This document shows positions 5,019-57,512 of a DNA stretch of 64,000 nt, piece after piece (positions within the stretch are counted from its first letter, which is position 1; every line of letters starts with the position of its first letter). Under the pieces are notes generated by a model, which was not told the DNA's origin, did not search any database, and worked only from the letters and a program-made list of their open reading frames with translations. Source of the DNA: Rhodopseudomonas faecalis (lineage in GTDB: Bacteria; Pseudomonadota; Alphaproteobacteria; Rhizobiales; Xanthobacteraceae); the NCBI RefSeq assembly GCF_003217325.1, contig NZ_QJTI01000003.1:1-64000 (forward strand), in the 5' to 3' direction. Both the position numbers and the translations under genes were made by a program.

Positions 5019-7145
<2,127 letters not shown>

Positions 7146-7179
7146 GCGGCGATACGTTCGCTCTCGACGTTCTGATAAG

Positions 7180-7210
7180 AAAAATGGCCGGGCTCGTCCC
7201 GGCCATTTTT
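7180..7210 (+). terminator. Rho-independent terminator after rpoD
   Basis: A perfect hairpin with arms AAAAATGGCCGGG and CCCGGCCATTTTT and a five-base loop, ending in a T run, 35 bp after the rpoD stop. The A-rich left arm would make it work in both directions. Confidence 0.9.
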
Positions 7211-7255
7211 GTTGGAGCTTAGCGATAGATGAGGCGGACCGGCGCAGCGCCGCAT

Positions 7256-7290
7256 GTAGGGTGGGTTAGGCGCAGCCGTAACCCACCATC
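7256..7290. repeat. Short palindromic element (GTGGGTTA type)
   Basis: An inverted repeat GGTGGGTTA ... TAACCCACC with a short loop (GGCGCAGCCG). It is followed at 7309-7345 by a second small palindrome (GGCGGATTACGCC / CATCCGCCC). Elements of this wording are scattered in intergenic DNA of Bradyrhizobium-group genomes; here they fill the gap between rpoD and the next gene. Confidence 0.55.
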
Positions 7291-7352
7291 TCAGCTGCGG
7301 CGGATTACGCCTTCGGCTCATCCGCCCTAAGGGCTACGGGCTGCCCTCTCGC

Positions 7353-7432
7353 CGTCATTGCGAGGAGCGCAGCGACGAAGCAATCTATCTTCATGCTTCC
7401 CGCTGGATTGCTTCGCTTCGCTCGCAATGACG
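7353..7432. repeat. REP-like element, CGTCATTGCGAG type
   Basis: An 80-bp element bounded by the inverted arms CGTCATTGCGAG (7353-7364) and CTCGCAATGACG (7421-7432), with an inner partly inverted pair GAAGCAATC / GGATTGCTTC. A partial second copy is at 8437-8532 and a single arm variant at 32285-32310, so this is a dispersed family in the window. The rest of the 7146-7510 gap holds no gene. Confidence 0.75.
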
Positions 7433-7510
7433 GGGAAAGGTGTCGACCAGACTGACTGCTGCACGTGGTGGAGAAACCGCCGCTGGCAGCTCACCCCTCA
7501 CACAACCCCC

Positions 7511-7933
7511 TCACGCCCGCTGTTCGCGCACTTCCTTCGGCAGCACGTTGCGCGATAGCCAGCAATTCAGCACCGTGGGCACGAGGCCGACCAGGCCATA
7601 GAGCACCAGCTGCTTGACGCCGGCGTCGGCGCCGCGGCCGCCATACATGAAAGCGGTGGCGGCGAATGCGATCGAGCCGCACAGCGCCATGCGCGCCGGC
7701 AGATGCAGCTGCGGGTAGTGCGACAGGATATCGTCGATCGCAGCGATCGCCAGCGACGGCAGCAGCGCGAACAGATAGCTGTACTGCATGGTCGTGACGG
7801 CTATCAGCAGAAACTTTTCAAGCTCCATCAGCGTGCCGCCGGTCCAGTAGCCGGACAGCACCGTCATCACCAACAGCAGCATGACGCCGCCCAGCGACGG
7901 GCCAATCAACCCATAGATCACATACCGCTTCAT
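7511..7933 (-). CDS. Small membrane protein, DUF5413-like
   Basis: A 140-residue protein with about four hydrophobic spans (roughly residues 7-27, 38-60, 72-92 and 108-125). It resembles a family of small inner-membrane proteins in Bradyrhizobium-group genomes, probably DUF5413; no function is known to me. The start MKRYVIYG at 7933 is chosen because GGAGG lies just before it; a start six codons upstream would add only a Met-Gly run. It stands alone between repeats and a divergent cupin gene. Confidence 0.65.
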   Translation of the reverse strand: MKRYVIYGLIGPSLGGVMLLLVMTVLSGYWTGGTLMELEKFLLIAVTTMQYSYLFALLPSLAIAAIDDILSHYPQLHLPARMALCGSIAFAATAFMYGGRGADAGVKQLVLYGLVGLVPTVLNCWLSRNVLPKEVREQRA

Positions 7934-8056
7934 ACCGCCTCCGCCGCCCAAAACTGTTGGGGCGAAGCTTACGGCAGCTCCGGCGAAAGCGGTATGGTCT
8001 TTTTGCCCCGGCAGGCGACCTTGGCCGTGCTACCATAATCACTTCAGCCCCGCGCC

Positions 8057-8386
8057 GTGAGCCTCAACATGCTGACCGGAAACCTGCTCGACCCGCTGCC
8101 GCCCGCCGCCCGCGACGAAGTGCTGGACACGCTGTTAACCTGCGGCGCGGTGCGCATCGAACGGATCGTATCGACCGGCCAGTCGAGCCCGCCCGGCTTC
8201 TGGTATGACCAGGACGAGACCGAATTCGTGGTGCTGCTTCAAGGCGCCGCCCGGCTGCGCTTCGAGGACGGCGAACTGACCATGACGCCCGGCAGCTACG
8301 TCACCATCGCGCCGCATCGCCGCCACCGTCTGGAGTGGACGCAGGCTGATCCGCCGACAGTCTGGCTCGCGGTGTTTTTCCCGTGA
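8057..8386 (+). CDS. Cupin-domain protein
   Basis: A 109-residue single-domain cupin. Motif 1 is degenerate (PPGFWYDQDETEFVVLLQG, residues about 46-65, with an acidic pair where His residues often sit) and motif 2 is TPGSYVTIAPHRRHRLEW (about 78-95), which keeps the PxH pair. Such small cupins often bind a divalent metal, but the substrate is unknown. The frame starts with GTG at 8057; an ATG four codons later (8069) is also possible. It is divergent from the small membrane protein gene at 7511-7933. Confidence 0.75.
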   Translation: MSLNMLTGNLLDPLPPAARDEVLDTLLTCGAVRIERIVSTGQSSPPGFWYDQDETEFVVLLQGAARLRFEDGELTMTPGSYVTIAPHRRHRLEWTQADPPTVWLAVFFP

Positions 8387-8436
8387 ACGTGCACTACGAA
8401 CGACACCGCGCCAGTTGCTCGGCACCTTTGCTCCAC

Positions 8437-8532
8437 CGTCATTGCGAGCGCAGCGAAGCAATCCAGGGACGCGAACTGAGCGTCTCGGTATAGGGTGGCG
8501 GTCCAAAGCTGGATTGCTTCGTCGGCTTCGTC
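8437..8532. repeat. REP-like element, second copy
   Basis: A copy of the CGTCATTGCGAG element: left arm at 8437-8466 (CGTCATTGCGAGCGCAGCGA then AGCAATCCA) and an inverted GCTGGATTGCTTCGTCGG segment at 8508-8525. The outer right arm is lost. The end of the element coincides with the stop codon of the neighbouring minus-strand gene. Confidence 0.65.
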
Positions 8533-8905
8533 AGCCGCGTGCCGCCGAGCCGCTGGGCGTCCGGGACGGCGCTGGCACCACGGCCGGCTGCAGCGCACCG
8601 CCGACAGGTCGGCGCCGGCCGCCACCGCCGCCCGCGTCACGATCAGTGGTCATGGTCATGATCGCGGTGCCCATCGCCGCCGAGCCAAACGTGATCACGA
8701 AGCCGAACAGCAACAGCCCGAGCGCGGTGCCGGGCGCGGCGTCGGCGAAAATCAGATCGCGCAGCCGCAGCGGGTTGAGCCACAACAGGCCGCCGAGCAG
8801 CAAGGTCGCTACCAGCCCGCCGACCGCCAGATTGATGGCCAATAGCCGCAGCAGCGGCTGCTCGCGCAGCTTGCCCGTCAGTTCGCCTGTCTGCTTCTCT
8901 GGCAT
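8531..8905 (-). CDS. Hypothetical small membrane protein
   Basis: A 124-residue protein of unknown function with two long hydrophobic spans (about residues 19-45 and 58-82) and a Gly/Pro/Arg-rich C-terminal tail. The start MPEKQTGEL at 8905 is preferred over one 11 codons upstream because the upstream part is Gly/Arg-rich and lacks a ribosome-binding site. The tail reads into the edge of a REP-like element that supplies the stop codon, so the natural C-terminus may have been altered. No family recognised. Confidence 0.5.
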   Translation of the reverse strand: MPEKQTGELTGKLREQPLLRLLAINLAVGGLVATLLLGGLLWLNPLRLRDLIFADAAPGTALGLLLFGFVITFGSAAMGTAIMTMTTDRDAGGGGGRRRPVGGALQPAVVPAPSRTPSGSAARG

Positions 8906-9153
8906 CCCTGCCCCGCTCGGGCCCTCGCCGCGTCGCATCGGCTCGCCTCCCTAAACTCGCACCGGCAGACTCGTACCGTTCAACAGGCTTGTAACGACTG
9001 CCTCAAAACGCTCTCGCCGCCAACGCCAGGCCGGATCGCACAGCAAGCTTGCCGGCTGGCGCGGCGGCGTCCAATTTCTTCCACGAAGTCTATGCTACAA
9101 GCCCGTTCGCCGCCATGCTGTTCCCTCCGTCCCCTGCAAGGAAGTCCATCACA

Positions 9154-9966
9154 ATGTCCCGATTGCGCATCGCTTTGTTCGGAATCGCCGTGCTTGCCGC
9201 TGGCCCGGCCGAGGCCGCCCGCTGCGGCGGCGATTTTCAGGGCTTCGTCGCGGCGATCTCGCAGGAGGCAGCGGCCTCGGGCATTTCCCAGGGCGTGATC
9301 AATGCCGCGCTCGGCGGCGTCACCCAGGACCCGGCGGTGCTGGCGTTCGATCGTCGCCAGCGCGGCACCTTCAACAAGACCTTTGAGCAGTACGTCGCCA
9401 CGCGAGTCGGGCCCGGCCGCATCAAGCAGGGCCTGGCGATGCTGCAACGCCACGGCTCGCTGCTGTCGCGCATCGAGCGGCAATTCGGCGTGCCGCCGGA
9501 AATTCTGGTCGCGATCTGGGGGCTGGAATCCGATTTCGGCAAGGGTGACACCGGCAAGCTGCCGGTGGTGCGCACGCTCGCCACCATGGCGCATGATTGC
9601 CGCCGTACCGAACTGTTCCAGGGCGAACTGCTGGCGGCGCTGCAGATCGTGCAGCGCGGCGACCTGCCGCTGCGCGACATGATCGGCGCCTATGCCGGCG
9701 AGATCGGCCAGACCCAGTTCCTGCCGTCGTCCTACATCAAATACGGCGTCGATTTCGACGGCAACGGCCATGTCGATCTGCGCCACAGCGTGCCGGATGT
9801 GCTGGCCTCGACCGCCAATCTGCTGAAAACCGCGGGCTGGCGCGCCGGCGGCTCCTATCAGGAAGGCTCGCCGAATTTCGAGGCGATGCGCGAATGGAAT
9901 CGCGCTTTGGTCTATCGCAAGACCATCGCTTACTTCGCCGACCGGCTGGCCGCGGGCGGCAACTGA
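9154..9966 (+). CDS. Lytic murein transglycosylase, MltB/SLT2 type
   Basis: A 270-residue periplasmic enzyme that cleaves the MurNAc-GlcNAc bond of peptidoglycan to form 1,6-anhydro ends. Signal peptide at residues 1-21 (cleavage after AEA), then the SLT_2 domain. The catalytic acid is E125 in AIWGLESDFGKG; the later GEIGQTQFLPSSYIKYGVDFDGNGHVDL block is the usual second signature. Shorter than E. coli MltB because it lacks a C-terminal peptidoglycan-binding domain. The ATG at 9154 is chosen because the signal peptide starts there and AAGGA precedes it. Followed by a hairpin terminator and then by flagellar genes on the other strand. Confidence 0.9.
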   Translation: MSRLRIALFGIAVLAAGPAEAARCGGDFQGFVAAISQEAAASGISQGVINAALGGVTQDPAVLAFDRRQRGTFNKTFEQYVATRVGPGRIKQGLAMLQRHGSLLSRIERQFGVPPEILVAIWGLESDFGKGDTGKLPVVRTLATMAHDCRRTELFQGELLAALQIVQRGDLPLRDMIGAYAGEIGQTQFLPSSYIKYGVDFDGNGHVDLRHSVPDVLASTANLLKTAGWRAGGSYQEGSPNFEAMREWNRALVYRKTIAYFADRLAAGGN

Positions 9967-9992
9967 TCCATCAACGGCCACCGAAGACCCGT

Positions 9993-10026
9993 GATGCCCG
10001 CGCCTGGTCGCGGGCATCTTCGTTTT
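9993..10026 (+). terminator. Terminator after the transglycosylase gene
   Basis: A perfect 10-bp stem GATGCCCGCG / CGCGGGCATC with a six-base loop, followed by TTCGTTTT. A second hairpin (ATGGCCGGG / CCCGGCCAT, 10053-10075) follows and may serve the converging flgD transcript. Confidence 0.8.
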
Positions 10027-10117
10027 GCCAGCAAGGCGGAGGCAAAACGTCAATGGCCGGGACGAGCCCGGCCATGATGGATCGATAGCTTGGTAGCAGT
10101 GGGACCCAGGGCCGCGA

Positions 10118-10849
10118 TCAGCTCTTGCCGCTGGTGCCGCTGTTGTAATAGCTGGCCGGCATCACGATCCTCTTGATCTGATCGACGGTGAAGGTCTGGC
10201 CACCGATCGTCAGCAGCGGCGGGTTCGAGGACAGATCCGCCGAATCGACCACGCCCTGAACCTCGGTCGCGATCGCAACGTTCTTGCCATCGGCATCCTT
10301 GCCGACCGCCGTCAGCTTGTATTTGCCAGCCGGCCATTGTGTGCCATCGGTGCCGCGGCCATTCCAGACGAAGCTTTGATGATCGCCCGCCGCCATTCTT
10401 TCTTCGCCGGAGTATACGGTCTGGCCTGCGGCATTGGTGATGGAAATCGAGACCGTCGAAGCCTTGGGGACATTCACCCCCCAAGCCGCGCTTCCATTCA
10501 CCAAGTTGGTGGTCGCGCCGTCCACGATCGCGGTGGCGCCAAGGAAGTTCAGCGCCTGCGTTGCTTGCGCCGTGGACTGCAGTTTGACCAGCGCTTCGAG
10601 CTGGCTGTTCGACTTGAGCTGCTGCTCGACGCCCGCAAACTGCACCAGCTGCTGGGTGAACTGGTTGGTGTCCAGCGGATCAAGCGGGTTCTGGTTCTGC
10701 AGCTGCGTGGTCAGCAACGTCAGGAACGACTGAAAGTTGTCGGCAATGCCCGATGACGATTTGGTCAGCGTGCTGCCCGAGTCCGACGGCTTAACCGGGG
10801 ACGGCGCCGAGTAGATGGTGTTCGGTTTGGTAGCTTCGACTGACGACAT
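10118..10849 (-). CDS. flgD: Flagellar hook-capping protein FlgD
   Basis: A 243-residue flagellar rod-hook protein that caps the growing hook and allows FlgE to assemble. The N-terminal FlgD signature FLTLLTTQLQNQNPLDP with DTNQFTQQLVQFAGVEQQ follows at residues 41-77; the C-terminal half holds the Tudor/Ig-like region (SITNAAGQTVYSGEERMAAGDH, FVWNGRGTDG). AGGAGG lies just before the ATG. Twelve bp separate it from fliK upstream, so fliK and flgD form one transcript. Confidence 0.95.
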   Translation of the reverse strand: MSSVEATKPNTIYSAPSPVKPSDSGSTLTKSSSGIADNFQSFLTLLTTQLQNQNPLDPLDTNQFTQQLVQFAGVEQQLKSNSQLEALVKLQSTAQATQALNFLGATAIVDGATTNLVNGSAAWGVNVPKASTVSISITNAAGQTVYSGEERMAAGDHQSFVWNGRGTDGTQWPAGKYKLTAVGKDADGKNVAIATEVQGVVDSADLSSNPPLLTIGGQTFTVDQIKRIVMPASYYNSGTSGKS

Positions 10850-46521: not shown

Positions 46522-49263
46522 TCACACCCCGAGCCGGCGCAGCGCACCGCTGCGCCGCATCAGCAATTTTTCCAGTTCGAGCACCACCATCATCACCGCG
46601 CCAGCGCCGATGATCACCAGGCCATCCTGCAACGACACCGGCGCAGTTCCGAACAGGGTGTGCATGAACGGCGCGTAGGTGAACGCCAGCTGCGCGGCGA
46701 TCACCACCGCGAGCGCGATCAGCACCGGCGGCGTTCCCAATGCGCCACGGAAAGACAACGAGCTGGCGTGCAGATAGCGGACGTTGAACAGATACACGGT
46801 CTTGAACACCACCAGCACGTTGACAGCCATGGTGCGCGCGGTCTCCAGCGTATGGCCCTGTGCCTGCGCAAAGAAGAAGATCGCCAAGGTTCCCATGGTG
46901 AACAGCAGCGTGACGAACAGGATGCGCCACACCAGGAACGGCGGCAGCAAGGGCGCATCGGCCGCACGCGGCGGCCGACTCATCGTGCCCGGCTCGGTCG
47001 GCTCAAAGGCCAGCACCAGGCCGAGCGTGACGGTGAGAATGAGGTTGATCCACAGAATCTGAACCGGCGTCATCGGCATGGCGAAGCCGAGCAGGATCGC
47101 CAGGGTGACACTCAGCACTTCGCCGCCATTGGTCGGGATCGTCCAGGAAATCACCTTGCGGATGTTGTCGTAAACCGTACGCCCCTCGCGCACCGCCGCC
47201 ACGATCGACACGAAATTGTCGTCGAGCAACACGATCTCCGCCGCTTCCTTGGCGGTCTCGGTGCCCTTGTGACCCATGGCAATGCCGACATCGGCCTGTT
47301 TCAGTGCGGGCGCGTCGTTGACGCCATCACCGGTCATCGCCACCACCGCGCCGCTGCCCTGCAGCGCGCGCACGATGCGCAGCTTGTGCTCGGGATTGGT
47401 GCGGGCGAACACATCGGACCGATGGATCAACGCGCTAAACTCGTCATCATCGGCGCGATCAAGATCAGCACCGCTGACCGCGCCGGCGGCCTCCGTCAAA
47501 CGCAATTGCCGGGCGATCGCCTCGGCGGTGGCGGCGTGATCGCCGGTGATCATCTTGACGCTGATGCCGGCCGAGCGGCATTCGGCGATCGCCTGGATCA
47601 CCTCATCGCGCGGCGGATCGATGAAGCCGACCAAGCCCAGAAACATCAGCCCGCACTCAAGATCGGCAAAGCCGAGTTGATCGGACGCGCGCACCGGCGC
47701 GCGCATCGCAAAGCCGAGCACGCGCTCGCCCTCCGCAGCGGCACGCGCGATCTGCTCAGTCCAAAATTGATGATCGAGCGGCCGCGGCCCAACGGCAGAG
47801 CTCTGGCTCTGGCACATCGCCAGCAGCCGTTCCGGCGCGCCCTTGACGAAGATCACATGATCGCCGGACGCCGTGCTGTGGCGCGTCGCCATGAAGCGAT
47901 GCTGGGCGTCGAACGGAATTTCATCGGAGCGCTGCCATGCGCTACGTTCCGCGGCGGGATCAAAGCCAGCCTTGATGGCGAGCGCGACCAGCGCGCCCTC
48001 CATCGGATCGCCATCGACCACGTAATGCTCCCCCGCCTGGCGCAGCTGCGCGTCATTGCACAGCAGCGCCGAGCGGATCAGCGGCAGCGCGGCTTGATTG
48101 GCGTCGGCATCGACGCGGCCTTCGCTCAACAGCTGGCCCTGCGGCACATAGCCGGAGCCACTTACGAGGATCGTGTGGTCGGCGGTGACGATGCGGCGCG
48201 CCGTCATCTCGTTGCGGGTCAGCGTGCCGGTCTTGTCCGAGCAGATCACCGAGGTGGCGCCCAGCGACTCCACCGCTGGCAAGCGGCGGATGATGGCGTT
48301 GCGCCGCGCCATGCGCTGCACGCCGATTGCCAGCGTGATGGTGATCACCGCCGGCAATCCTTCCGGGATCACGCTCACCGCCAGCGCCACCACCGCGATC
48401 AACGCCTCGGGCCAGGCATAGCCGCGCGCCAGCGTCGCAAAGGCAAACAGCGCGGCCGCGGCCACGATCACCACCCAGGTGAAACGCTGCGCGAATTGAT
48501 TGATCTGCTTGAGCAGCGGCGTGGTCAGTTGCTCGACGCTTTGCATCAAAGAATTGATGCGGCCGATTTCGGTGCGGCCGCCGGTCGCCACCACAACGCC
48601 AAACCCTTGGCCCGCCGAAACCACCGTGCCGCAAAACGCCATGCAGTGCCGGTCGCCGAGCGGCGCGTCCGGCGCTGCGGGATGATCCTGTTTATCGGCG
48701 GCGACCGATTCGCCGGTCAGCATCGCCTCGTCGATCAACAGGCCCCGCGCCCGCGTCAGGCGCAGATCGGCCGGCACCCGGTCGCCGGCTTCGATCATCA
48801 CCACGTCGCCGGGCACGAGGTCGGCGGCGGCAATACTGACGCGATGGCCGTCGCGCCATACATGGGCGCGCGGTGAAATCATCTTGCGGATGGCGGAAAG
48901 CGCCCGCTCCGCCTTGTCTTCCTGGATGAAGCCGGCGATGGCGTTGATGGTCACCACCGCCACGATCACCGCCGCATCAATGGCATGGCCGAGCACCGCC
49001 GCCGCCAGCGCGGCCGCGAGCAGGAAGTAGATCAGCATGTTGTCGAACTGCGCCAGCAGCCGCCGCCAGGCCGGACGGCGCGGCGGCTCGGGCAGCGCAT
49101 TCGGGCCATAGGTGGCGAGCCGCGCCTTGGCTTCCGCGCTGCTCAGTCCGCCGCGTTCGGTCAAGAGCAGCGCCAGCACGCGATCAGCATCGACCGCGTG
49201 CCAGATCTCGCCAGACGCCTGGTCATTGGGTCCCTTGATCGCGGCGTCTGGCACTTCGCTCAT
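46522..49263 (-). CDS. P2-type cation-transporting ATPase
   Basis: A 913-residue P-type ATPase. N-terminal cation ATPase domain, ten membrane spans in the 2-2-6 pattern, the phosphorylation site CSDKTGTLTRNEMTAR, PEGL in span 4 (VIPEGLPAV) as in calcium-type P2A pumps, KMITGDHA and GDGVNDAPALKQADVGIAMG. It may move Ca2+ or another divalent ion. Start at 49263 (MSEVPDA), where homology begins; the open frame runs further upstream but is Cys/Leu-rich and unlikely. A 98-bp gap separates it from the stress-protein gene downstream. Confidence 0.88.
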   Translation of the reverse strand: MSEVPDAAIKGPNDQASGEIWHAVDADRVLALLLTERGGLSSAEAKARLATYGPNALPEPPRRPAWRRLLAQFDNMLIYFLLAAALAAAVLGHAIDAAVIVAVVTINAIAGFIQEDKAERALSAIRKMISPRAHVWRDGHRVSIAAADLVPGDVVMIEAGDRVPADLRLTRARGLLIDEAMLTGESVAADKQDHPAAPDAPLGDRHCMAFCGTVVSAGQGFGVVVATGGRTEIGRINSLMQSVEQLTTPLLKQINQFAQRFTWVVIVAAAALFAFATLARGYAWPEALIAVVALAVSVIPEGLPAVITITLAIGVQRMARRNAIIRRLPAVESLGATSVICSDKTGTLTRNEMTARRIVTADHTILVSGSGYVPQGQLLSEGRVDADANQAALPLIRSALLCNDAQLRQAGEHYVVDGDPMEGALVALAIKAGFDPAAERSAWQRSDEIPFDAQHRFMATRHSTASGDHVIFVKGAPERLLAMCQSQSSAVGPRPLDHQFWTEQIARAAAEGERVLGFAMRAPVRASDQLGFADLECGLMFLGLVGFIDPPRDEVIQAIAECRSAGISVKMITGDHAATAEAIARQLRLTEAAGAVSGADLDRADDDEFSALIHRSDVFARTNPEHKLRIVRALQGSGAVVAMTGDGVNDAPALKQADVGIAMGHKGTETAKEAAEIVLLDDNFVSIVAAVREGRTVYDNIRKVISWTIPTNGGEVLSVTLAILLGFAMPMTPVQILWINLILTVTLGLVLAFEPTEPGTMSRPPRAADAPLLPPFLVWRILFVTLLFTMGTLAIFFFAQAQGHTLETARTMAVNVLVVFKTVYLFNVRYLHASSLSFRGALGTPPVLIALAVVIAAQLAFTYAPFMHTLFGTAPVSLQDGLVIIGAGAVMMVVLELEKLLMRRSGALRRLGV

Positions 49264-49743
49264 GAAGGCGCCGCGGTGATCGACACAGCTTCCAGCAAGA
49301 TCGCAGCGCGAGTAGATGAGCGAAGCGTCACCGTGCGCCCCCGGCAGCAAGCGGCACTGATCAGCCGACACTTGCTGTTCCGTTCAGGCCGCATCGTCGC
49401 ACAACGTGCTCCTTGCTGATCAGGCCGAGCACGGCGCAAGCCACTCGGATTCGACCTGGTCGGAACCGAAACTGTTATACCAGCGGCTCCTACCATTGAC
49501 TCGTCATGCCCGCGCTTGTCGCGGGCATCCACGTCTTGAAAGCGCGGCAAGATCAAAGACGTGGATGGCCGGGACGGAGCCCGGCCACGACGTGCGGAGA
49601 GGTCGGCATCAATCACCGTTGGTATTACTCGCGCAACATGTCACCCGGCGGACGGCCTCAACGCGGCAGTCCGCCACGGTGAGTCTATCAAGCAAAATCG
49701 CGATGGAAGATGCGGTTGCTCGTCGCAAGGCGCGCGAAAAGGC
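49264..49743. other. Intergenic gap with dispersed palindrome (49503-49592)
   Basis: About 480 bp between the ATPase start and the hyfI stop. It holds a palindromic element at 49503-49592: outer GTCATGCCCGCG / CCGGCCACGACG-like ends and a perfect inner pair CATCCACGTCTT (49526-49537) / AAGACGTGGATG (49556-49567). The wording is typical of repeats scattered in Rhodopseudomonas-type genomes. I see no gene in the gap; the hyf transcript probably ends here. Confidence 0.6.
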
Positions 49744-50277
49744 TCAGCGCGATACCGGCGCGCTGGCGGCCTTGTCGAGCAATGCCAGCAATCCTTTCAA
49801 GATTTTCAGCGGCGGTGGCGGACAGCCGGGAATATGCAGATCGACCGGGATCACTTGCGCGACCCCGCCCACCACTGCGTAGCTGCCGGCGAAGCAGCCG
49901 CCATCCTTGGCGCAGTCGCCCAGCGCCACCACCCATTTCGGCGACGGCGTCGCGTCATAGGTGGTCTTGAGCGCATCGGCCATGTTCTTGGTCACCGGCC
50001 CGGTGACCAGCAGCACGTCGGCATGCCGGGGCGAAGCGACAAAGCGCAGACCGAAGCGATCGATGTCGTAATACGGGTTGCTGAGCGCGTGGATTTCCAG
50101 CTCGCAGCCATTGCAGGAGCCGGCGTCAACTTCGCGGATCGACAGGCTGCGGCCGAGCTTGCGGCGCGCGCGCTCGCCGAGCGCGGTGGCGATCTCCGCC
50201 ACGGCGTCATCGTCGAGCGACGGCGCCGTCTCGGTGAACGGACGCTGGAACAGGCTTTCAAACAGCAGCTTGCGCAT
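49744..50277 (-). CDS. hyfI: HyfI/HycG-type small subunit (NuoB-like)
   Basis: A 177-residue group 4 hydrogenase small-subunit homologue. The four cluster ligands for the proximal [4Fe-4S] are all present: C55 and C58 (GSCNGCELE), C122 (GDCAKDGGC) and C152 (PGCPPPP). C128 in the same loop is extra. The sequence PRHADVLLVTGPVTKNM is the family mark. Thus the small subunit could still take part in electron transfer, in contrast to the large subunit. Last gene of the hyfBCEFGI unit, 9 bp after hyfG. Confidence 0.85.
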   Translation of the reverse strand: MRKLLFESLFQRPFTETAPSLDDDAVAEIATALGERARRKLGRSLSIREVDAGSCNGCELEIHALSNPYYDIDRFGLRFVASPRHADVLLVTGPVTKNMADALKTTYDATPSPKWVVALGDCAKDGGCFAGSYAVVGGVAQVIPVDLHIPGCPPPPLKILKGLLALLDKAASAPVSR

Positions 50278-50286
50278 CGCCCTCGC

Positions 50287-51795
50287 TCACAGATCGACGC
50301 CGGAATAGGAGCAGTTGAAGGATTTGTTGCAGACCGGGAAGTCGGCAACGATATTGCCCTCGATCGCCGCTTCCAGCAGTGGCCATTGGAACCAGGATGG
50401 ATCGCGCAGATGGCAACGCGCGATCGCGCCGTCCGTAAGCCGCAGCCACGCCAGCACGTCGCCGCGAAAACCTTCAACCAGCGCCAAGCCTTCGGCAGGC
50501 TCGATGATCGCCGGCAACGGCACGCGGCACTCGCCTTCCGGCAGTTCCGACAGAATTTGCTCGATCAGTCCGAGGCTCTGTTTGACCTCGCGAATCCGAA
50601 TCCAGACGCGCGCATTGACGTCGCCTTCGGTCAGCACCGGCACTTTGAAGCGCAGCTGATCATAAGGTGGATAAGCGAGATCGCGCCGCGCGTCGAAATC
50701 GCGCCCCGATGCGCGGCCGACATAGCCGCCAGCGGCGTATTGCTGCACGAGTTCCGCCGACAGCCGCCCGGTGGTCACGGTGCGGTCCTGCAACGACGCG
50801 GTCTCGTCGTAGAGTTCGATCAGTTCCGGAAAACGCTGGCGCACGGTCTTGGCCATCTGCCGGATCGAGCCCTTGCCGGTGTCGTCGAGATCGCGGGCAA
50901 CGCCGCCCGGCACCACCACATCGCGCATCAGCCGATGACCGAACGCCCGCTCCGCGGCACGCAACACATTTTCGCGCAGCACGCTGCAATGGGACAACAT
51001 CAGCGCGAAGGCGACGTCGTTGCAGACGCCGCCGATGTCGCCGAGGTGATTGGCGAGCCGTTCCAGCTCGGCGCAGAGCGCGCGCAGCCACAGCGCCCGC
51101 GCCGGCACGGTAACGCCAAGCGCGGCCTCGGCGGCACGGGCAAAGGCGATCGCATAGGCCACGGTGCTATCACCGCTGACGCGGCCGGCAAGCTGGGCGC
51201 CACGCTCAAGATCGGCGCCGATCAACAGGCCATCGATGCCCTTGTGCACATAGCCGAGCCGTTCCTCGAGCCGCACCACGGTTTCACCATTGGCGGTGAA
51301 GCGGAAATGGCCGGGCTCGATAATGCCGGCATGCACCGGGCCGACCGCGATCTGATGCAGGCCCTCGCCATCGACCGGCAGCATCTGATAGCCGCGCGGC
51401 GCGCTGGCCGGCAGCCGCGGGCCGAGCGGAAAACGCACGCCCCATTGATCGCGATCGAGCCAGGGCCGCGGATCGGGCGAGCCTTCCGGCACCAGGCCGA
51501 ACAGATCGTGGAGCGAGCGTTCCAGCCGCAGCGCCGGCGGATGCAACATGCCGACCGAGGGAAAGCTGCCGCTTGGGCACGGCAGGCTGAGCACCACCGC
51601 TTCGCCAAGCTGCGGTTCGAGCATCGCCATATGCACGGTGTCGGCTTCGCCCCACAGCGACAGCAGCGACCAGCGCCCGGCGACCAGTTCGAGCGTGGCG
51701 CGCGACCACTGCGCGGCATCAACCACCAGCCGCGGACACGGCCGATGCCCCGCAACGATCTGGCCCTGCAGCTTCAGTTCATCGAGTGACGCCAT
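50287..51795 (-). CDS. HyfG/HycE-type large subunit without NiFe cysteines (Ehr-like)
   Basis: A 502-residue fusion of NuoC-like (about 1-145, ERSLHDLFGLVPEGSPDPR) and NuoD-like (about 150-502, VHAGIIEPGHFRF, EERLGYVHKGIDGL) domains, as in HycE. True NiFe enzymes have CxxC in RxCGxC and DPCxxC. Here they read R205-V-S-G-D-S210 and D465-P-S-W-F-Q470, so all four Ni ligands are gone (S207, S210, S467, Q470). Catalysis of H2 is therefore not expected. The C-terminal end FPVCNKSFNCSYSGVDL fits the energy-converting-hydrogenase-related (Ehr-L) class, whose reaction is unknown. Confidence 0.85.
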   Translation of the reverse strand: MASLDELKLQGQIVAGHRPCPRLVVDAAQWSRATLELVAGRWSLLSLWGEADTVHMAMLEPQLGEAVVLSLPCPSGSFPSVGMLHPPALRLERSLHDLFGLVPEGSPDPRPWLDRDQWGVRFPLGPRLPASAPRGYQMLPVDGEGLHQIAVGPVHAGIIEPGHFRFTANGETVVRLEERLGYVHKGIDGLLIGADLERGAQLAGRVSGDSTVAYAIAFARAAEAALGVTVPARALWLRALCAELERLANHLGDIGGVCNDVAFALMLSHCSVLRENVLRAAERAFGHRLMRDVVVPGGVARDLDDTGKGSIRQMAKTVRQRFPELIELYDETASLQDRTVTTGRLSAELVQQYAAGGYVGRASGRDFDARRDLAYPPYDQLRFKVPVLTEGDVNARVWIRIREVKQSLGLIEQILSELPEGECRVPLPAIIEPAEGLALVEGFRGDVLAWLRLTDGAIARCHLRDPSWFQWPLLEAAIEGNIVADFPVCNKSFNCSYSGVDL

Positions 51796-51807
51796 GCCAT
51801 CCTCACA

Positions 51808-53259
51808 CTAGCCGAGCAGTTGAGCGACATGCTGGAACCAGGCCACGATCGGCGCCGGCAGGTAGAAGCCGGCGATCAGCACCAGCGCCAGATGGGCAAA
51901 CATCGGCACATAGGACGCCTGAGCCGGCGCGGTCGAGCCGCGCGGTTCGCCGAAGGCGACGCTGGTCAGCCGCAGCGTCAGCGCGCCGAATGCCACCAAG
52001 AGCCCGATCACCAGCACCAGTGCCAACAGCGGTTGCCGGGCAAAGGTGGAGCTGACCACCAGAAATTCGCTCATGAAGATGCCGAGCGGCGGCAGCCCGG
52101 CGATCGCCGCAACGCCGACCACCAGACCCCAGCCGAGCGCCGGATGGCTTTCGGTGAGGCCGCGGATTTCCGAAATCTGCTGGGTGCCTTTGATCTGCGT
52201 GATGTGACCGACCGCGAAGAAGATCGCCGACTTGGTCAGGCTGTGCATCACCATATGCAGCAGCCCGGCGAAATTGGCGAGCGGACCGCCCATGCCGAAC
52301 GCGAACACGATGATGCCCATATGCTCGATCGAGGAATAGGCGAACAGCCGTTTGATGTCGCGGCGCCGATACAGCATGAAGGCGGCGAACAAGAGCGAGC
52401 CGAGCCCCATGGTCACCATCAGCGTGCCGGGCGCCAGCGCATCCGGATTGGCGGCGAGCAGCATCTTGAAGCGCAACAGCGCATAGAGCGCGACGTTGAG
52501 CAGCAGTCCGGACAGCACGGCCGAGATCGGCGTCGGGCCTTCGGCATGGGCATCGGGCAGCCAGGCATGGAGCGGCGCCAAGCCGACCTTGGTGCCGTAG
52601 CCCAGGAACAGGAACACGAAGGCAACGTTGAGCAGCGCCGGATCGAAATTGCCGGCGCGCTCGATCAGCAGCGTCCAGACCATGGCGTCGTTGCCTTCGC
52701 CGATCACCGGCAGCGCCGCCATATAGACCAGGATGGTGCCGAACAGCGCGAACGCGATGCCGACCGAACCCAGGATGAAATACTTCCACGCCGCTTCCAG
52801 CGCCGCATGGGTGCGATAGATGCCGACCATCAGCACCGTGGTCAGCGTCGCGACCTCGACCGCCACCCACATCAGGCCGATATTGTTGGAGACGAACGCC
52901 AGGTTCATGCCGAACATCATGATCTGGTACATGGCGTGGTAGAACCGCAGATAGGCTGGGGTCAGCCGTCCGGTCTGCAGCTCATGGGCGATGTAGCTGG
53001 CGCTGAACAGGCTGGTGGTGAAGCCCACGAACGTGTTCAGCACCACGAACACGATGTTGAGGTCGTCGACCAGCACATACGACCCCGGGGTCGGCCGCGG
53101 CAGCGCCAGCAGCAAGAGCGCCGAGATGAAGGTGGCAAGGCTCGCCACCACATTGAGCCGCGCGGTCAGCCGGTAGCCCGGCAGCAGCGCCAGCACCGCC
53201 GCCGATCCGATCGGGATCAGCAGCACGCCATAGACAGCATCGAAAGCAGTCATCGTCAT
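51808..53259 (-). CDS. hyfF: HyfF-type proton-channel subunit
   Basis: A 483-residue antiporter-like membrane subunit (hydrogenase-4 subunit F / NuoN type) with about 14 spans. Family marks: LWVAVEVATLTTVLMVGIYR (the Glu of the channel), GYGTKVGLAPLHAWLPDAHAEGPTPISAVLSG and AYSSIEHMGI. It would carry protons or cations, coupled to the hyfG/hyfI arm. Overlaps hyfE by 4 bp. Confidence 0.92.
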   Translation of the reverse strand: MTMTAFDAVYGVLLIPIGSAAVLALLPGYRLTARLNVVASLATFISALLLLALPRPTPGSYVLVDDLNIVFVVLNTFVGFTTSLFSASYIAHELQTGRLTPAYLRFYHAMYQIMMFGMNLAFVSNNIGLMWVAVEVATLTTVLMVGIYRTHAALEAAWKYFILGSVGIAFALFGTILVYMAALPVIGEGNDAMVWTLLIERAGNFDPALLNVAFVFLFLGYGTKVGLAPLHAWLPDAHAEGPTPISAVLSGLLLNVALYALLRFKMLLAANPDALAPGTLMVTMGLGSLLFAAFMLYRRRDIKRLFAYSSIEHMGIIVFAFGMGGPLANFAGLLHMVMHSLTKSAIFFAVGHITQIKGTQQISEIRGLTESHPALGWGLVVGVAAIAGLPPLGIFMSEFLVVSSTFARQPLLALVLVIGLLVAFGALTLRLTSVAFGEPRGSTAPAQASYVPMFAHLALVLIAGFYLPAPIVAWFQHVAQLLG

Positions 53260-53921
53260 CCGCGCTCTCCGCGCGATCGATCGAGATCGTCGACGTCGAC
53301 CGAGTCGAAGCGCTCCCGAATCCGGAACAGGAAGATGCCGATCACGATGAAGGCGATCAGAACCGAGAACGCCACGCTGATTTCCACCACCAGCGGCATG
53401 CCCTTGGCGCCGGTGGCGGCCAGCACCAGGCCGTTTTCCAGCGACATGAAGCCGACCACCTGACTGACGGCGTTACGGCGCGTCACCATCACGAGCAGGC
53501 TGAGCAGCACCACCGACAGCGCGAAAGCGAGGTCTTCGCGCGCCAGCGCGTCGGCTTCCGCGGTGACGCGCAGCATGATCACCATCGACAGCGCCACCAG
53601 CCCCATGCCGGCCAGCATGGTCGGGCCGATGCCGAAAACGGTCTCGATATCGCGGTGAATGCCGAGCTGGCGGATGATGCGATGCAGCGCCACCGGGATC
53701 ACGATCGCCTTGAACACCAGCGCGATCGCCGCGGTGACATAGAGATGCGGCGCGTTTTGGATCATCGCCTGCCAGGTGACCGCGGCCGCCAGCACCACGG
53801 CGTGCAGCGCGAACACGTTGAGCAGCGAATAGAGCCGGTCCTGATACAGCATCATGAAGCTGATCAGCACCAGGATGCCGGCCAGCGAGTGTGAGATATC
53901 GAACGCCAGACTGTGCATCAC
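53256..53921 (-). CDS. hyfE: HyfE-type membrane subunit
   Basis: A 221-residue membrane protein with six to seven spans, the HyfE component of group 4 complexes (its C-terminal part resembles NuoK). Marks: ISFMMLYQDRLYSLLNVFALHAVVLA, AIVIPVALHRIIRQL, and GFMSLENGLVLAATGAKGMPL (carries the Glu of NuoK-like subunits). Overlaps both neighbours by 4 bp. Confidence 0.9.
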   Translation of the reverse strand: MMHSLAFDISHSLAGILVLISFMMLYQDRLYSLLNVFALHAVVLAAAVTWQAMIQNAPHLYVTAAIALVFKAIVIPVALHRIIRQLGIHRDIETVFGIGPTMLAGMGLVALSMVIMLRVTAEADALAREDLAFALSVVLLSLLVMVTRRNAVSQVVGFMSLENGLVLAATGAKGMPLVVEISVAFSVLIAFIVIGIFLFRIRERFDSVDVDDLDRSRGERG

Positions 53922-54877
53922 AAGCTCTTCGAGACGAACAACAACAGCGTGCCGAGCAGCCCCAGCATCAAGGCGGCGCCGAGGAATTGCGGCACCCGGA
54001 ACACCCGCATCTTGGCGGTCGCGGTTTCAAACAGCGCCAGCAGGAAACCGACCGCCGCCAGCTTGACGACATAGACCGCGGTGCCGACCACATAAGATTG
54101 CAGACCGGCGCCCGACACCGCGATGCCCCAGGGGAAGAACAGGCAGGCCAGCAGCGACACATAGAGCAGCAGCTTGAGGAAGGCGCCGAACTCGATCAGC
54201 GCTAGATGACGCCCGGAATATTCCAGGATCATCGCCTCATGGACCATGGTCAGTTCGAGATGGGTCGAGGGATTGTCGACCGGAATCCGGGCGTTTTCCG
54301 CGAGTGCCACCATGATCAGCGCGATCATCGCGAGGCCGAGCGACACGCGCAGCCCGACCTGCGCGGACGCGATGAAATTGGCGATGGTCGAGAGCTGGCT
54401 GGAGCCGGCGACCAGCGCCACGCAGAACACGATCAGCAGCATCGCCGGTTCGGCGAGCGCGGCGATCATCACTTCGCGGCTGGAGCCGAGCCCGCCGAAG
54501 GCGGTGCCGACATCCATGCCGGCCAGCGCCAGGAAGAAGCGCGCGGTGCCGAGCAGCGCCACGATCACGATCAGGTCGGCCATCCAGTTGAACAGCAGCC
54601 CGGTGGCGAAGGTCGGCACCAGCGCCGCCGCCACCCAGATCGCCGCGAAGGTGACATAGGGCGTGGCGCGGAACAGCCAGGAGGCATTGTCGGCCAGCAC
54701 CACATCCTTGCGCAGCAGCCGCAGCAGATCGCGATAGGGCTGCAGCAGCGATGGCCCGCGCTTGCGCATCAAGCGCGCTTTCACTTTTCGGATGAAGCCG
54801 GTGAGCAGCGGCGCCAGTGTGAACACCAGCAGCATCTGCAGGCCCTGCACCAGGAGGTCGTTGAGGGTCACGCCCAT
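53918..54877 (-). CDS. hyfC: HyfC-type membrane subunit (NuoH-like)
   Basis: A 319-residue membrane subunit of the NuoH/HycD class that anchors the soluble arm. About eight spans; marks are RKRGPSLLQPYRDLLRLLRKDVV (residues 39-60), ENARIPVDNPSTHLELTMVHEAMILEYSGRHLALIEF-type segment (charged loop, about 210-245). Overlaps hyfB by 10 bp and hyfE by 4 bp. Confidence 0.92.
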   Translation of the reverse strand: MGVTLNDLLVQGLQMLLVFTLAPLLTGFIRKVKARLMRKRGPSLLQPYRDLLRLLRKDVVLADNASWLFRATPYVTFAAIWVAAALVPTFATGLLFNWMADLIVIVALLGTARFFLALAGMDVGTAFGGLGSSREVMIAALAEPAMLLIVFCVALVAGSSQLSTIANFIASAQVGLRVSLGLAMIALIMVALAENARIPVDNPSTHLELTMVHEAMILEYSGRHLALIEFGAFLKLLLYVSLLACLFFPWGIAVSGAGLQSYVVGTAVYVVKLAAVGFLLALFETATAKMRVFRVPQFLGAALMLGLLGTLLLFVSKSL

Positions 54878-56886
54878 ATTGCGATCACCACCAGCAGTGC
54901 GACCAGCGTGGCGAACACCAGGCTGAGATAGCCGCGGATCGACAGCAGTTGCATGTTGTTGAGACGGGTCGAGACGAATTCGATCGCGGACGCGATCCGA
55001 CCGTACAGGTTCTCCCAGATCAGATCGTGCAGCTCGACCGAGAATTTCGCCGGCGCGACGCTGCCGGGCGGCGGCATGGTGACGTGGTCGCGGGCGCGGA
55101 ACAGCAGCGTGCCGAACACCCGGCGCAGCGGCTGCGCAACGCTGTCGGGCGAATATTGCGCGAGCGGCACCGGCTCGGCGTAGCCGCAGCCCCAGGCCGG
55201 CGCACGGCGCACCGCAGGCGACGACAGCTTCAGGATCGCCAAGAAGCCGAGCGTCGCGGAGATCGCGATGAAGGCCAGCACCAAGAGGCCGTTATAGGAA
55301 CCGCGGCGCAGATCGATCGGCACGATCGACAGCCACGGTAGTTCGGTCTGCCCGGCGAGCCGGATGTGCAGAATCTCGGCGCTGACCGGCGCCAGCGCAT
55401 CCATCACCAGGCCTGGGAAAATGCCCGCCAGCAGGCACAGCAGCGCCAGGATCGCCATCGCGGCGACCGAGAAGCGATCGACTTCCCGCGCGTTTTCCGC
55501 GGCCGGGCTACGCGGCCGGCTGAGGAAGCTGGCGCCATAGGCTTTGACGAAACAGGCCGCGGCCAGTGCCGCCGCCAGCGCCAGCATGCCGCCGATCGCC
55601 GGCACCATGATTTTCAGGCCCCATTGCGGCAGTTGCGGGCTCTGCAGCACCGCCTGGAAGGTCAGCCACTCCGAGACAAAGCCGTTGAACGGCGGCAGCG
55701 CCGAGATCGCCACCGCGCCGATCAGGAACACGATGCTGGTGGCCGGCATGCGGTGAATGAGGCCGCCGAGCCGGTCCATGTTGCGCTCGCCGGTGGCGAC
55801 CAGCACCGCGCCGGCGCCGAAGAACAGCAGGCTCTTGAACAGCGAGTGATTGAAGATGTGGAACAGCGCCGCGGTGAAGGCCAGCGCCGCCGGCAGACCC
55901 TGGCCATTGGCCTGAAACGCCAGCGCCAGCCCGAGGCCGACAAAGATCATGCCGACATTCTCGATCGTGGAATAGGCCAGCAGCCGCTTCAGGTCGCGCT
56001 CCATCAGCGCATAGAGAATGCCCATCACCGCGGTGACGCCGCCGAGCAACAGCACCACCACGCTCGCGGTCCAGTCGGGACGGCCGAGCAGATCGAACAC
56101 CACGCGAATGAAGCCGTAGATCGCCACCTTGGTCATCACGCCGCTCATCAGCGCCGAGACGTGGCTGGGCGCGGCCGGATGGGCGAGCGGCAGCCAGACA
56201 TGGAGCGGCACCAGGCCGGCCTTGGAGCCGGCGCCGAGCAGCATCAACACCAGCACCAGGGTCGCGGCGGCGCCGGAATGCGGGGCGGCGCGGATGGCGT
56301 CGAAGGCGTAGTTGCCGGCGGGACCTGCAAGGAAGCCGAACGCCAGCAGCAGCGCCATCGTGCCGAAACTGGCCATCAGCAGATAGACATAGCCGGCCTG
56401 CGCATTGCCGCTCTGGCGATGATGCGCCATCACCAGCGCCCATGACGCCAGCGACATGAATTCCCAGCTCAAGAGATAGGAGAATGCGTCGTTAGCCAGC
56501 AGCACCAGATTCATGCCGGCTAGAAACGCCGGGAAGAATGGCAGCACGCGCTGCGGCGCGTGTTCGTGGCGGCCGTAGCCGAGCGCATACAGGCTGGCGA
56601 GCGCGCCGCCGAGATTGATCACCACCAGGAAGAACGCGGACAGCGCATCGAGCCGGAAATGCGCGCCGAGCCATGGCAGGCCGATCGGCAGCACCAGGCC
56701 CGGCCCCGGCGCCGCGCCGGTGACCAGCACCCGCAGCGCGCCAAAACAGGCGGCACCGCACAGCAGCAAGGTGGCGCCATAGACCACGGCATTGCCGATC
56801 CGCCAGCGCGCCAGCATCACCGCCAGCACCGAGACGGCGAGCAACGCGCCGACACAGCTCAGTTGCAGGGCGACGGCCGACATCAT
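54868..56886 (-). CDS. hyfB: HyfB-type proton-channel subunit (NuoL-like)
   Basis: A 672-residue antiporter-like subunit, hydrogenase-4 subunit B. About 15 spans; marks: LLSWEFMSLASWALV (Glu), GAGSKAGLVPLHVWLPLAHPAAPSHVSALMSG and LAYSTIENVGMIFVG; then a C-terminal extension with a charged loop and a last span, as in HyfB/HycC. First gene of the six-gene unit, about 430 bp after the CxxC protein gene. Confidence 0.93.
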   Translation of the reverse strand: MMSAVALQLSCVGALLAVSVLAVMLARWRIGNAVVYGATLLLCGAACFGALRVLVTGAAPGPGLVLPIGLPWLGAHFRLDALSAFFLVVINLGGALASLYALGYGRHEHAPQRVLPFFPAFLAGMNLVLLANDAFSYLLSWEFMSLASWALVMAHHRQSGNAQAGYVYLLMASFGTMALLLAFGFLAGPAGNYAFDAIRAAPHSGAAATLVLVLMLLGAGSKAGLVPLHVWLPLAHPAAPSHVSALMSGVMTKVAIYGFIRVVFDLLGRPDWTASVVVLLLGGVTAVMGILYALMERDLKRLLAYSTIENVGMIFVGLGLALAFQANGQGLPAALAFTAALFHIFNHSLFKSLLFFGAGAVLVATGERNMDRLGGLIHRMPATSIVFLIGAVAISALPPFNGFVSEWLTFQAVLQSPQLPQWGLKIMVPAIGGMLALAAALAAACFVKAYGASFLSRPRSPAAENAREVDRFSVAAMAILALLCLLAGIFPGLVMDALAPVSAEILHIRLAGQTELPWLSIVPIDLRRGSYNGLLVLAFIAISATLGFLAILKLSSPAVRRAPAWGCGYAEPVPLAQYSPDSVAQPLRRVFGTLLFRARDHVTMPPPGSVAPAKFSVELHDLIWENLYGRIASAIEFVSTRLNNMQLLSIRGYLSLVFATLVALLVVIAIWA

Positions 56887-57009
56887 GAGCGGCGCCCCCG
56901 ACCACTACCGCAGAACCGGCGTTCCGGCGCGCAGCACGCCCGCCGATGGCCATCGCCAGTCCGGACTTTATGCGTGCTTGCATCACCGAGGGTCATAGCC
57001 GCTCCACTT

Positions 57010-57028
57010 ATGATGTTCAAAACATCAT
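57010..57028. promoter_or_regulatory. Candidate operator palindrome upstream of hyfB
   Basis: ATGATGTT, CAA, AACATCAT: perfect 8-bp arms and a 3-bp centre, 124 bp before the hyfB start. The region around it (57000-57050) is the most AT-rich in this neighbourhood. The form suits a dimeric regulator. The site differs from the one at 24279 in sequence, but shares the 8-3-8 layout. Confidence 0.5.
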
Positions 57029-57320
57029 ATCTGATAGATGGGATATCTGTCTCGCCGCGATTCGTGAGTTTTTCGCGGAGCAGCTATTAAGCCACCGCTG
57101 GTGTCGAATGAAAATTGTCGCATTTTGAAACAGTCTTTCCGAGCAGCGAGCGGATCTGCCGGAACGGTCAACCGCCGGCGGGGCGCGGACGGGAAAGGCA
57201 GCTGAGGCGGCACTCTTGGCCGCTCAGCACAGCTGCCGCGGGCGCGGCAGTCGATCCGGCGGCGGCGGCGCAGCTCAGGCTGGGCTCGCCGATCCGGGGG
57301 GTGGGAGCGGCGGCCGCTCC

Positions 57321-57512
57321 TTAGATCCAACCCGGCGTGCAGCTGATCAAGGCGGTGGAGCAATCGTCCTCGGACTCGCCGGCGCCGAGCACGGCGCCGC
57401 AATGCCGGCAGATGCGCGGCTTCAGCGCCGTGGCGCGAGTGGTTTTGCGCTGCAACTGATAGTCGACGAAATCGACGACGTTCGGAGCTGGCGTTGATGA
57501 TTGTTCGACCAT
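57321..57512 (-). CDS. Small CxxC protein, 63 aa
   Basis: A 63-residue protein, MVEQSSTPAPNVVDFVDYQL at the N-terminus, then KPRICRHCGAVLGAGESEDDCSTALISC at about 31-58. Four cysteines (CxxC, then two more at 12- and 6-residue spacing) suggest one zinc ribbon. GAGGG precedes the ATG at 57512 by nine bases. It lies upstream of the hyf operon on the same strand, 434 bp away; co-regulation is possible, not shown. Confidence 0.55.
   Translation of the reverse strand: MVEQSSTPAPNVVDFVDYQLQRKTTRATALKPRICRHCGAVLGAGESEDDCSTALISCTPGWI

Follow-up and report, generated by a model that had tools for sequence, protein, structure and literature searches.

Two separate literatures describe complexes closely related to the one considered here. 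The first concerns Azorhizobium caulinodans, in which the hyqRBCEFGI operon is NifA-dependent and needed for full growth on N2 (PMC2650096). The lack of both CxxC pairs in its large subunit, HyqG, has been in print since 2012, when the proteins from eight genera were reported to contain Cys 258, 491 and 497 instead and were considered possibly unable to carry NiFe; Rhodopseudomonas palustris, Bradyrhizobium japonicum and Rhizobium leguminosarum were among the listed hosts of hyq orthologues (PMC3357923). The second concerns the energy-converting hydrogenase-related (Ehr) complexes, which have been named and their lost ligands described (PMC6349859, PMC10284858, PMC10432482, PMC13194489), and for which Geobacter proteins have been reported (PMC7894505). 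A word search of the 2012 Hyq paper (PMC3357923) returned no mention of Ehr, and four Ehr papers searched in the same way returned none of Azorhizobium, hyq or endo-hydrogenase. The current study examines a hyq-type operon within a 64,000-nucleotide stretch of Rhodopseudomonas faecalis DNA, hereafter the window (assembly GCF_003217325.1, contig NZ_QJTI01000003.1, positions 1 to 64,000), whose large subunit lacks all four cysteine ligands of nickel, as do nearly all of its relatives. The operon is real and of a kind already described under two names; a preliminary description, made from the sequence alone, had assigned it correctly in outline with one motif misplaced.

The six-gene operon and its large subunit

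Six open reading frames, all on the minus strand and in the order hyfB, C, E, F, G, I type, fill positions 49744-56886. Neighbouring frames overlap by 10, 4 and 4 bp (B/C, C/E and E/F) and the last two junctions are gaps of 12 and 9 bp, which agrees with the tight unit originally proposed. The product of hyqE scores below the cut-off of its best model (85.6 bits against 136), and its protein cluster was found in 73 of 81 sources (the 80 loci described below plus the window). The genes and the three motifs discussed below are as follows.

54868..56886, minus strand: hyqB/hyfB-like antiporter-type pump subunit, 672 amino acids (NCBIfam NF005086, hydrogenase 4 subunit B, 874.5 bits, cut-off 667)
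53918..54877, minus strand: hyqC/hyfC, NuoH-like anchor, 319 amino acids (PF00146, E 7.9e-40)
53256..53921, minus strand: hyqE/hyfE-like membrane subunit, 221 amino acids (NF008556, hydrogenase 4 membrane subunit E, E 4.4e-24)
51808..53259, minus strand: hyqF/hyfF-like antiporter-type pump subunit, 483 amino acids (NF005043, hydrogenase 4 subunit F, 923.6 bits, cut-off 533)
50287..51795, minus strand: hyqG/hyfG-like large subunit, fused NuoC and NuoD, 502 amino acids, without Ni ligands (PF00329 and PF00346)
49744..50277, minus strand: hyqI/hyfI-like small subunit of the NuoB family, 177 amino acids (PF01058, E 5.9e-33)
51166..51183, minus strand: RVSGDS, codons 205-210 of hyqG, in the place of RxCGxC, with S207, D209 and S210 (alignment)
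50299..50316, minus strand: NCSYSG, codons 494-499 of hyqG, the true DPCxxC place, with N494 at the canopy Asp place (alignment)
50386..50403, minus strand: DPSWFQ, codons 465-470 of hyqG, an ordinary superfamily segment (alignment)

The best match of HyqG in the PDB by sequence is HycE (7z0s_E, E 6.4e-54), which is also the first match of its predicted fold (TM-score 0.86 over the query). RVSGDS aligns with RVCGIC of HycE/HyfG, just as the preliminary description had it, whereas its choice of DPSWFQ as the second nickel motif was wrong and is rejected: that segment aligns with AATYANW of HycE/HyfG and with RAPGF/RTPSF of NuoD. It is NCSYSG, within the last ten HyqG residues (FNCSYSGVDL), that aligns with DPCYSC of HycE/HyfG. 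The claim that every ligand is gone stands for all four, but for the second pair it rests upon S496 and G499, which occupy the places of the two cysteines, with C495 sitting one residue before S496.

These replacements are a property of the family. Our large-subunit alignment has 136 rows (125 Ehr, 8 HycE/HyfG and 3 NuoD), being 149 hits minus four copies from the window's own genome and rows with identical ends; the large subunit of locus L144 (genome G204), which is fused to hyfF, was left out. All four ligand columns are without Cys in 122 of the 124 Ehr rows covering both sites, the sole exceptions being L039 and L142 with one ligand Cys each (RTCGDS and RSCGDS). A sequencing error in the window is therefore unlikely. 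Furthermore, the C-terminal extension that is cleaved during hydrogenase maturation (PMC7384014) follows the motif as 32 residues in 8/8 HycE/HyfG rows and is 0 residues long in the Ehr and NuoD rows. As far as sequence can show, the loss of nickel is supported, and HyqG would be unable to hold a NiFe centre. In a tree of 69 sequences, the 60 Ehr sequences fall on one side of a branch with support 100/100, and HyqG of the window groups with the sequences from R. palustris and R. pseudopalustris (96/84). The alignment and tree that had been proposed as a check, together with the missing ligands and the published descriptions (PMC6349859, PMC10284858), thus support the assignment to the Ehr class.

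Residues neighbouring the NiFe site, taken from PMC11228991 and PMC9474812 and placed via alignments of HyqG with PDB sequences, reveal a pocket that is partly retained and partly rebuilt. The beta1-beta2 Glu (Glu21 of MbhL) corresponds to E160, kept in 124/125 Ehr rows, and the canopy Arg to R444, kept in 124/124; H250 and D501 are kept in 125/125 and 124/124 rows, respectively. E403 and R361, placed by hand on Glu437 and Arg395 of HycE, are also kept. In contrast, the canopy Asp, reported to be strictly conserved in hydrogenases and complex I (PMC9474812), is replaced by Asn (N494) in 124/124 Ehr rows, and Ile70 of MbhL, which lies between the first two lost cysteines, is replaced by Asp (D209) in 125/125. 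K491 is present in 124/124 Ehr rows where HycE/HyfG and NuoD have Gly, while S207 (123/125) and G499 (124/124) are likewise Ehr-specific. Altogether, 24 positions reach 97% conservation or more within Ehr while differing from all 8 HycE/HyfG and 3 NuoD rows, and 11 of them fall in HyqG segments 156-159, 207-209, 465 and 490-499, around the old NiFe site. Cys 258, 489 and 495 occur all together in 99/124 Ehr rows. The structure-based alignment comprised 38 rows from the 80 loci, the window's own row counted in.

Small subunit, membrane arm and selection

The small subunit keeps its cluster cysteines: C55, C58, C122 and C152 of HyqI, all listed in the preliminary description, are found in 119-120 of 120 Ehr rows, the hydrogenase-spaced CxxC in all 120, and the resulting CxxC...C...C motif is suited to one 4Fe-4S cluster. 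In the membrane arm, the columns scored are those that we take to be proton-carrying in NuoM, NuoL and NuoH. HyqB E142, K222, K253, K351 and E406 are present in 62/62 relatives, HyqF E135, K224 and E398 in 75/75 (one Lys place holds Asn, which is also the case in E. coli HyfF), and HyqC E143, D201, E208, E214 and E219 in 67/67; at two other HyqC places, those of NuoH E216 and E218, there is Ala or another small residue and His, respectively. The family matches and invariant residues bear out the earlier view of two intact pumps and a NuoH-like anchor, and the proton-path residues of HyqB, C and F are intact, from which, together with homology, we infer pumping.

Ratios of non-synonymous to synonymous substitution rates (dN/dS) have medians of 0.16 (B), 0.11 (C), 0.05 (E), 0.10 (F), 0.16 (G) and 0.10 (I), as calculated by the Nei-Gojobori method, each gene being represented by 13-15 selected close pairs that are not all independent. 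The highest single value is 0.50 (hyqF, pair L092-L096). Judged by these ratios, the hyq genes are under purifying selection.

Distribution across genomes

A search of 299 genomes of the phylum with the large subunit, in which at most 5 first-look candidates were scored per genome (at most 3-7 in the searches for the other genes below), gave matches at E 1e-70 in 63. Fifty-seven of these match at 1.6e-130 or better and are referred to as Ehr genomes; the other six, between 1.8e-73 and 9.6e-79, encode HycE-type subunits and all have intact NiFe motifs. Within the order, 12/150 genomes match at E 1e-60. HypD is present in 6/6 genomes with HycE-type subunits and absent from 35/57 Ehr genomes; of the 29 Ehr genomes with a completeness of 99% or more, 12 lack it. 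A group 4 [NiFe] hydrogenase would be expected to have four Cys ligands of nickel and a maturation extension, and to occur only with Hyp maturation genes; HyqG has neither of the first two, and the Ehr family is not confined to HypD-encoding hosts.

Among other genes, nifD is found in 11/57 Ehr genomes and 28/242 others, and the RuBisCO family (E 1e-30, a threshold at which RuBisCO-like proteins count too) in 37/57 genomes with Ehr versus 57/242 without (P 7e-9). When split by the largest family (f72), in partial counts for which the 68 f72 genomes listed are those with some match only, RuBisCO is found outside it in 14/27 genomes with Ehr versus 24/204 without, and inside it, among the genomes listed, in 23/30 versus 33/38. 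Since nifD (10/27 versus 27/204), coxL-like genes (13/27 versus 31/204) and HypD are also enriched with Ehr outside f72, we treat the RuBisCO link as largely a matter of phylogeny, although this is not proven. The window's genome itself contains two reaction-centre (Photo_RC) genes, four RuBisCO-family matches and nifD. One contig holds HypD together with the genes for a HupL-type hydrogenase and a further hydrogenase-like protein, and there are two different nuoD genes (L001 and L002), one of which lies inside a 654-amino-acid open frame.

Conservation, neighbours and regulation

A scan of named genomes confirmed at least 580 loci, and the operon was further compared in the 80 best of these; DNA was also obtained for 38 of the 57 Ehr genomes. 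Genes were called by codon score, so that start sites are approximate. In 59/80 loci all six genes follow one another as B-C-E-F-G-I, and the unit stays clear of both ends of the retrieved DNA; 20 of the remaining 21 come within 200 bp of such an end and one has C-E-F-G-I only. The G-I gap exceeds 150 bp in 5/74 loci. Among the clustered neighbours, the position of only one is constant: an XRE regulator adjoins 27 of 67 called hyqB starts, window included. Its cluster has members in 28 loci, that of L018 lying downstream on the other strand, and the other neighbour clusters are scattered or present in at most 16 loci. Fourteen distant loci were also compared. Twelve have all six genes, L134 breaks off before I is reached, and in L144 a single frame covers F and G. 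This 1005-amino-acid open reading frame (7136-10153), which joins the hyfF-like and large-subunit genes, is a possible pump/large-subunit fusion. A tandem hyfB-type pair occurs in 3/14 distant loci (L132, L143 and L144), as the Geobacter names ehrA-1/ehrA-2 suggest. Directly before hyfB, 9/14 have a gene of 180-190 amino acids (including L133 3257-3811 and L143 17811-18365), and the products of the two that were scanned are cupin-XRE proteins. The ligand of such a regulator might hint at the substrate of the complex.

Downstream of the window's operon are a P-type cation ATPase gene (46522-49371, minus strand), which is not a conserved neighbour according to the clustering of neighbours in the 80 loci, and a universal stress protein gene; upstream is a fused cytochrome b/c1 gene. 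Between the latter and hyqB lies a 63-amino-acid open reading frame with CxxC and a second Cys pair (57321-57512, minus strand). About 140 bp upstream of hyqB there is a perfect 9-bp inverted repeat, TATGATGTT-TTG-AACATCATA (57009-57029, minus strand), which is possibly an operator; among the upstream regions scanned, a shorter repeat resembling it was seen in L024 only.

No hyqR-like gene was found beside the window's operon, nor was a NifA box or sigma54 site found upstream of it. Sigma54 sites with up to 2 mismatches gave 0 matches in 62 upstream regions (2.7 expected), a looser sigma54 pattern gave 1 in 63, and NifA boxes were found in 6/62 versus 4.6 expected. The absence of this signature lowers the claim of nif control, not that of orthology with hyq.

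Discussion

The Ehr and Hyq literatures seem to name one kind of complex twice. Ehr papers describe its function as unknown or, in a single instance, the complex as nonfunctional, while Hyq papers attribute to it both H2 uptake and evolution, on genetics alone. The preliminary description had likewise left the substrate unknown, with an undescribed partner; its assignment to Ehr stands, but it omitted the published hyq mutants, their H2 phenotypes and NifA control. To the conflict between genetics and active-site sequence can now be added a set of family-wide pocket residues, hosts that lack HypD, and free-living laboratory species that carry the operon. There is something to learn from either outcome, whether a hydrogenase without NiFe or a proton-pumping oxidoreductase that is widespread and has so far been misread.

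We favor the second outcome, at a rough probability of 45%. Hyq/Ehr would be a minimal six-subunit complex of the complex I superfamily, acting as a NiFe-free, reversible and proton-pumping oxidoreductase between a soluble low-potential carrier and quinone. HyqI would hold one hydrogenase-type [4Fe-4S] cluster, HyqG would form a NiFe-free pocket with the Ehr-specific S207, D209, K491, N494 and G499, and HyqC, E, F and B would constitute the membrane arm with intact proton-path residues. Our guess is that a soluble carrier of the ferredoxin or flavodoxin type exchanges electrons at HyqI, where it would dock directly, since the operon encodes no NuoI/HyfH subunit. It is likewise a guess that membrane quinone binds at the HyqG/HyqI/HyqC junction. 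Electron transfer would be coupled to proton pumping, the pump step being assumed by homology, and would be reversible, so that in a cell in need of low-potential reductant the proton-motive force could drive electrons uphill. Azorhizobium grows more slowly on N2 once hyq is deleted, a defect that ammonium rescues (PMC2650096) and that would also be expected from a reductant- or proton-motive-force-linked role.

Several observations weigh against such an oxidoreductase. In HyqG, G208 occupies the NuoD column of the quinone-binding Tyr of complex I, and a Glu, E160, stands as it does in hydrogenases where complex I has its loop His; the usual ligands thus lend quinone binding no support. The predicted HyqG model is poorly ordered at 133-184 and 480-502. 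No electron-carrier or input subunit linked to the operon was found among the clustered neighbours, and in 46 loci with stretches of at least 19 kb, the 2.5 kb on either side of the operon contained no called protein with CxxCxxCxxxC (one such protein, in 1/46 loci, was present anywhere in the stretch). There is accordingly no support for a dedicated redox partner encoded with the operon, and conserved neighbours are rejected as candidates for that role; only small regulators recur. HypD is commoner with Ehr (22/57) than without (58/242; odds ratio 2.0, P 0.03), and more so outside f72 (13/27 versus 38/204). Such an enrichment would follow from a link to hydrogen, but in the window's genome HypD is found on the contig of the ordinary HupL-type hydrogenase.

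The published H2 phenotypes weigh in the same direction and speak for Hyq as an endo-hydrogenase, i.e., a true H2:quinone oxidoreductase, bidirectional in vivo, with a site other than the classic NiFe centre. Nodule H2 evolution was 0.30 (parent), 0.32 (hup), 0.36 (hyq) and 27 (double mutant) µmol per g per h, and H2 recycling survives deletion of the hup/hyp operon (PMC2930871). Azorhizobium Hyq is reported to support reversible H2 metabolism in vivo: cultures evolved 12 (parent), 175 (hyq) and 540 (hup hyq) pmol per 10^9 cells per min at 20 µM O2 and, in the same units below 1 µM O2, 7,100 (parent), 2,600 (hyq), 61,000 (hup) and 14,000 (double mutant) (PMC3357923, Table 2). Unless Hyq takes up H2, it is difficult to account for the contrast in nodules between 27 for the double mutant and 0.32 for hup, and of all the evidence the nodule values speak most strongly against an H2 effect that is purely indirect. 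At low electron flux, the relative H2 release of nitrogenase rises, and this might contribute to the phenotype of the single hyq mutant; it could scarcely account for how far hup and hup hyq differ. Retention of E160, R444, H250, E403 and R361 also suits a hydrogenase. Against it stand the missing nickel ligands and maturation extension; furthermore, the canopy Asp to Asn change and the HypD-less hosts weigh against an ordinary NiFe hydrogenase, even if the mild HypD enrichment weighs the opposite way. A 2010 statement holds that hyq is generally absent from non-diazotrophs (PMC2930871); in contrast, 46/57 Ehr genomes here are without a nifD match at E 1e-150, which argues that nitrogenase H2 is not a general Ehr substrate. 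The authors of the Hyq studies themselves call the catalytic site speculative and state that they had no cell-free assay (PMC3357923). On balance, an endo-hydrogenase of this type seems unlikely.

Rather improbable, in our view, is a reductase of some small substrate with the proximal cluster itself catalytic, such as a sulfane-sulfur reductase resembling MBS, a membrane-bound enzyme in which this fold persists although NiFe is lost and the substrate is a different one (PMC7684303). The hydrogenase-spaced CxxC in 120/120 Ehr rows and the loss of all four pocket cysteines in 122/124 distinguish the family from this precedent. It is also decidedly unlikely that the complex is a relic or otherwise non-catalytic, consisting of an antiporter/pump arm and a redox-dead head under relaxed selection. 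The Geobacter complex has been called nonfunctional (PMC13194489) and no partner gene lies at the operon, but dN/dS medians of 0.05-0.16 and pocket residues near-invariant over 125 sequences speak against a relic, at least in this clade. The same data would allow a gated pump without redox activity. We consider highly unlikely a hydrogenase of new chemistry, which would both oxidise and make H2, in line with the Azorhizobium genetics, but without NiFe(CN)2CO, Hyp maturation or the four cysteines, using the proximal cluster plus an S207/D209/K491/N494/C495 pocket or a metal not yet recognized. Least credible of all is a formate dehydrogenase feeding the complex, an arrangement that has been proposed for Riflemargulisbacteria and also suggested for Geobacter (PMC6349859, PMC7894505), where Ehr subunits are more abundant with formate (PMC7894505): the alpha subunit (Fdh-alpha, E 1e-150) shows no association with Ehr over the 299 genomes (29/57 versus 135/242, P 0.56), for which reason the link is rejected, and none exceeds the cut-off in the window's genome (best E 5.1e-14, matches that are probably NuoG because they lie a few kb from each nuoD copy), which refutes it for this organism barring an unrecognised type of formate dehydrogenase.

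Comparison with known systems

Azorhizobium Hyq is the closest system described: one operon holds the six structural genes, arranged B-C-E-F-G-I as in the window. Its HyqG has 504 amino acids, Cys 258/491/497 and no CxxC, compared with 502 amino acids and Cys 258/489/495 in the window, the cysteines being matched by number and spacing, while HyqI shares Cys 55, 58 and 152, the fourth being printed as 112 there and found at 122 here. The systems differ in that Azorhizobium has hyqR and a reported NifA box and sigma54 promoter, which the window's operon lacks, and in that the Cys trio reported as completely conserved in Hyq is complete in only 99/124 Ehr rows. The Ehr complexes of Geobacter, comammox Nitrospira and ammonia-oxidising archaea, compared by description, are likewise group-4-like, with antiporter-type pumps and no CxxC ligands; Geobacter has both ehrA-1 and ehrA-2, whereas the window has one hyfB-type gene.

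Formate hydrogenlyases 1 and 2 of E. coli (hyc and hyf) share with the window's complex the large-subunit fold, the proximal cluster motif, the beta1-beta2 Glu and the canopy Arg, as well as, for hyf, the membrane subunits B, C, E and F. However, the window lacks the NiFe ligands, the 32-residue extension and adjacent hyfA, D, H and J, has Asn in place of the canopy Asp, and comes from a genome without a formate dehydrogenase over the cut-off. MBS differs as follows: its proximal cluster has three Cys ligands in a shortened motif, it keeps a pair of pocket cysteines, and it has a ferredoxin-type subunit, with a changed substrate on the same fold (PMC7684303), and the window's complex has none of these three features. 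Respiratory complex I resembles the window's complex in its NuoB, C, D and H and antiporter-like subunits and in having neither a C-terminal extension nor NiFe. Unlike complex I, the window's operon has no NADH module, NuoA or NuoI and includes a HyfE-type subunit; its small subunit has CxxC instead of adjacent CC, the column of the quinone Tyr holds Gly, and the canopy position of HyqG is Arg where complex I more commonly has Lys.

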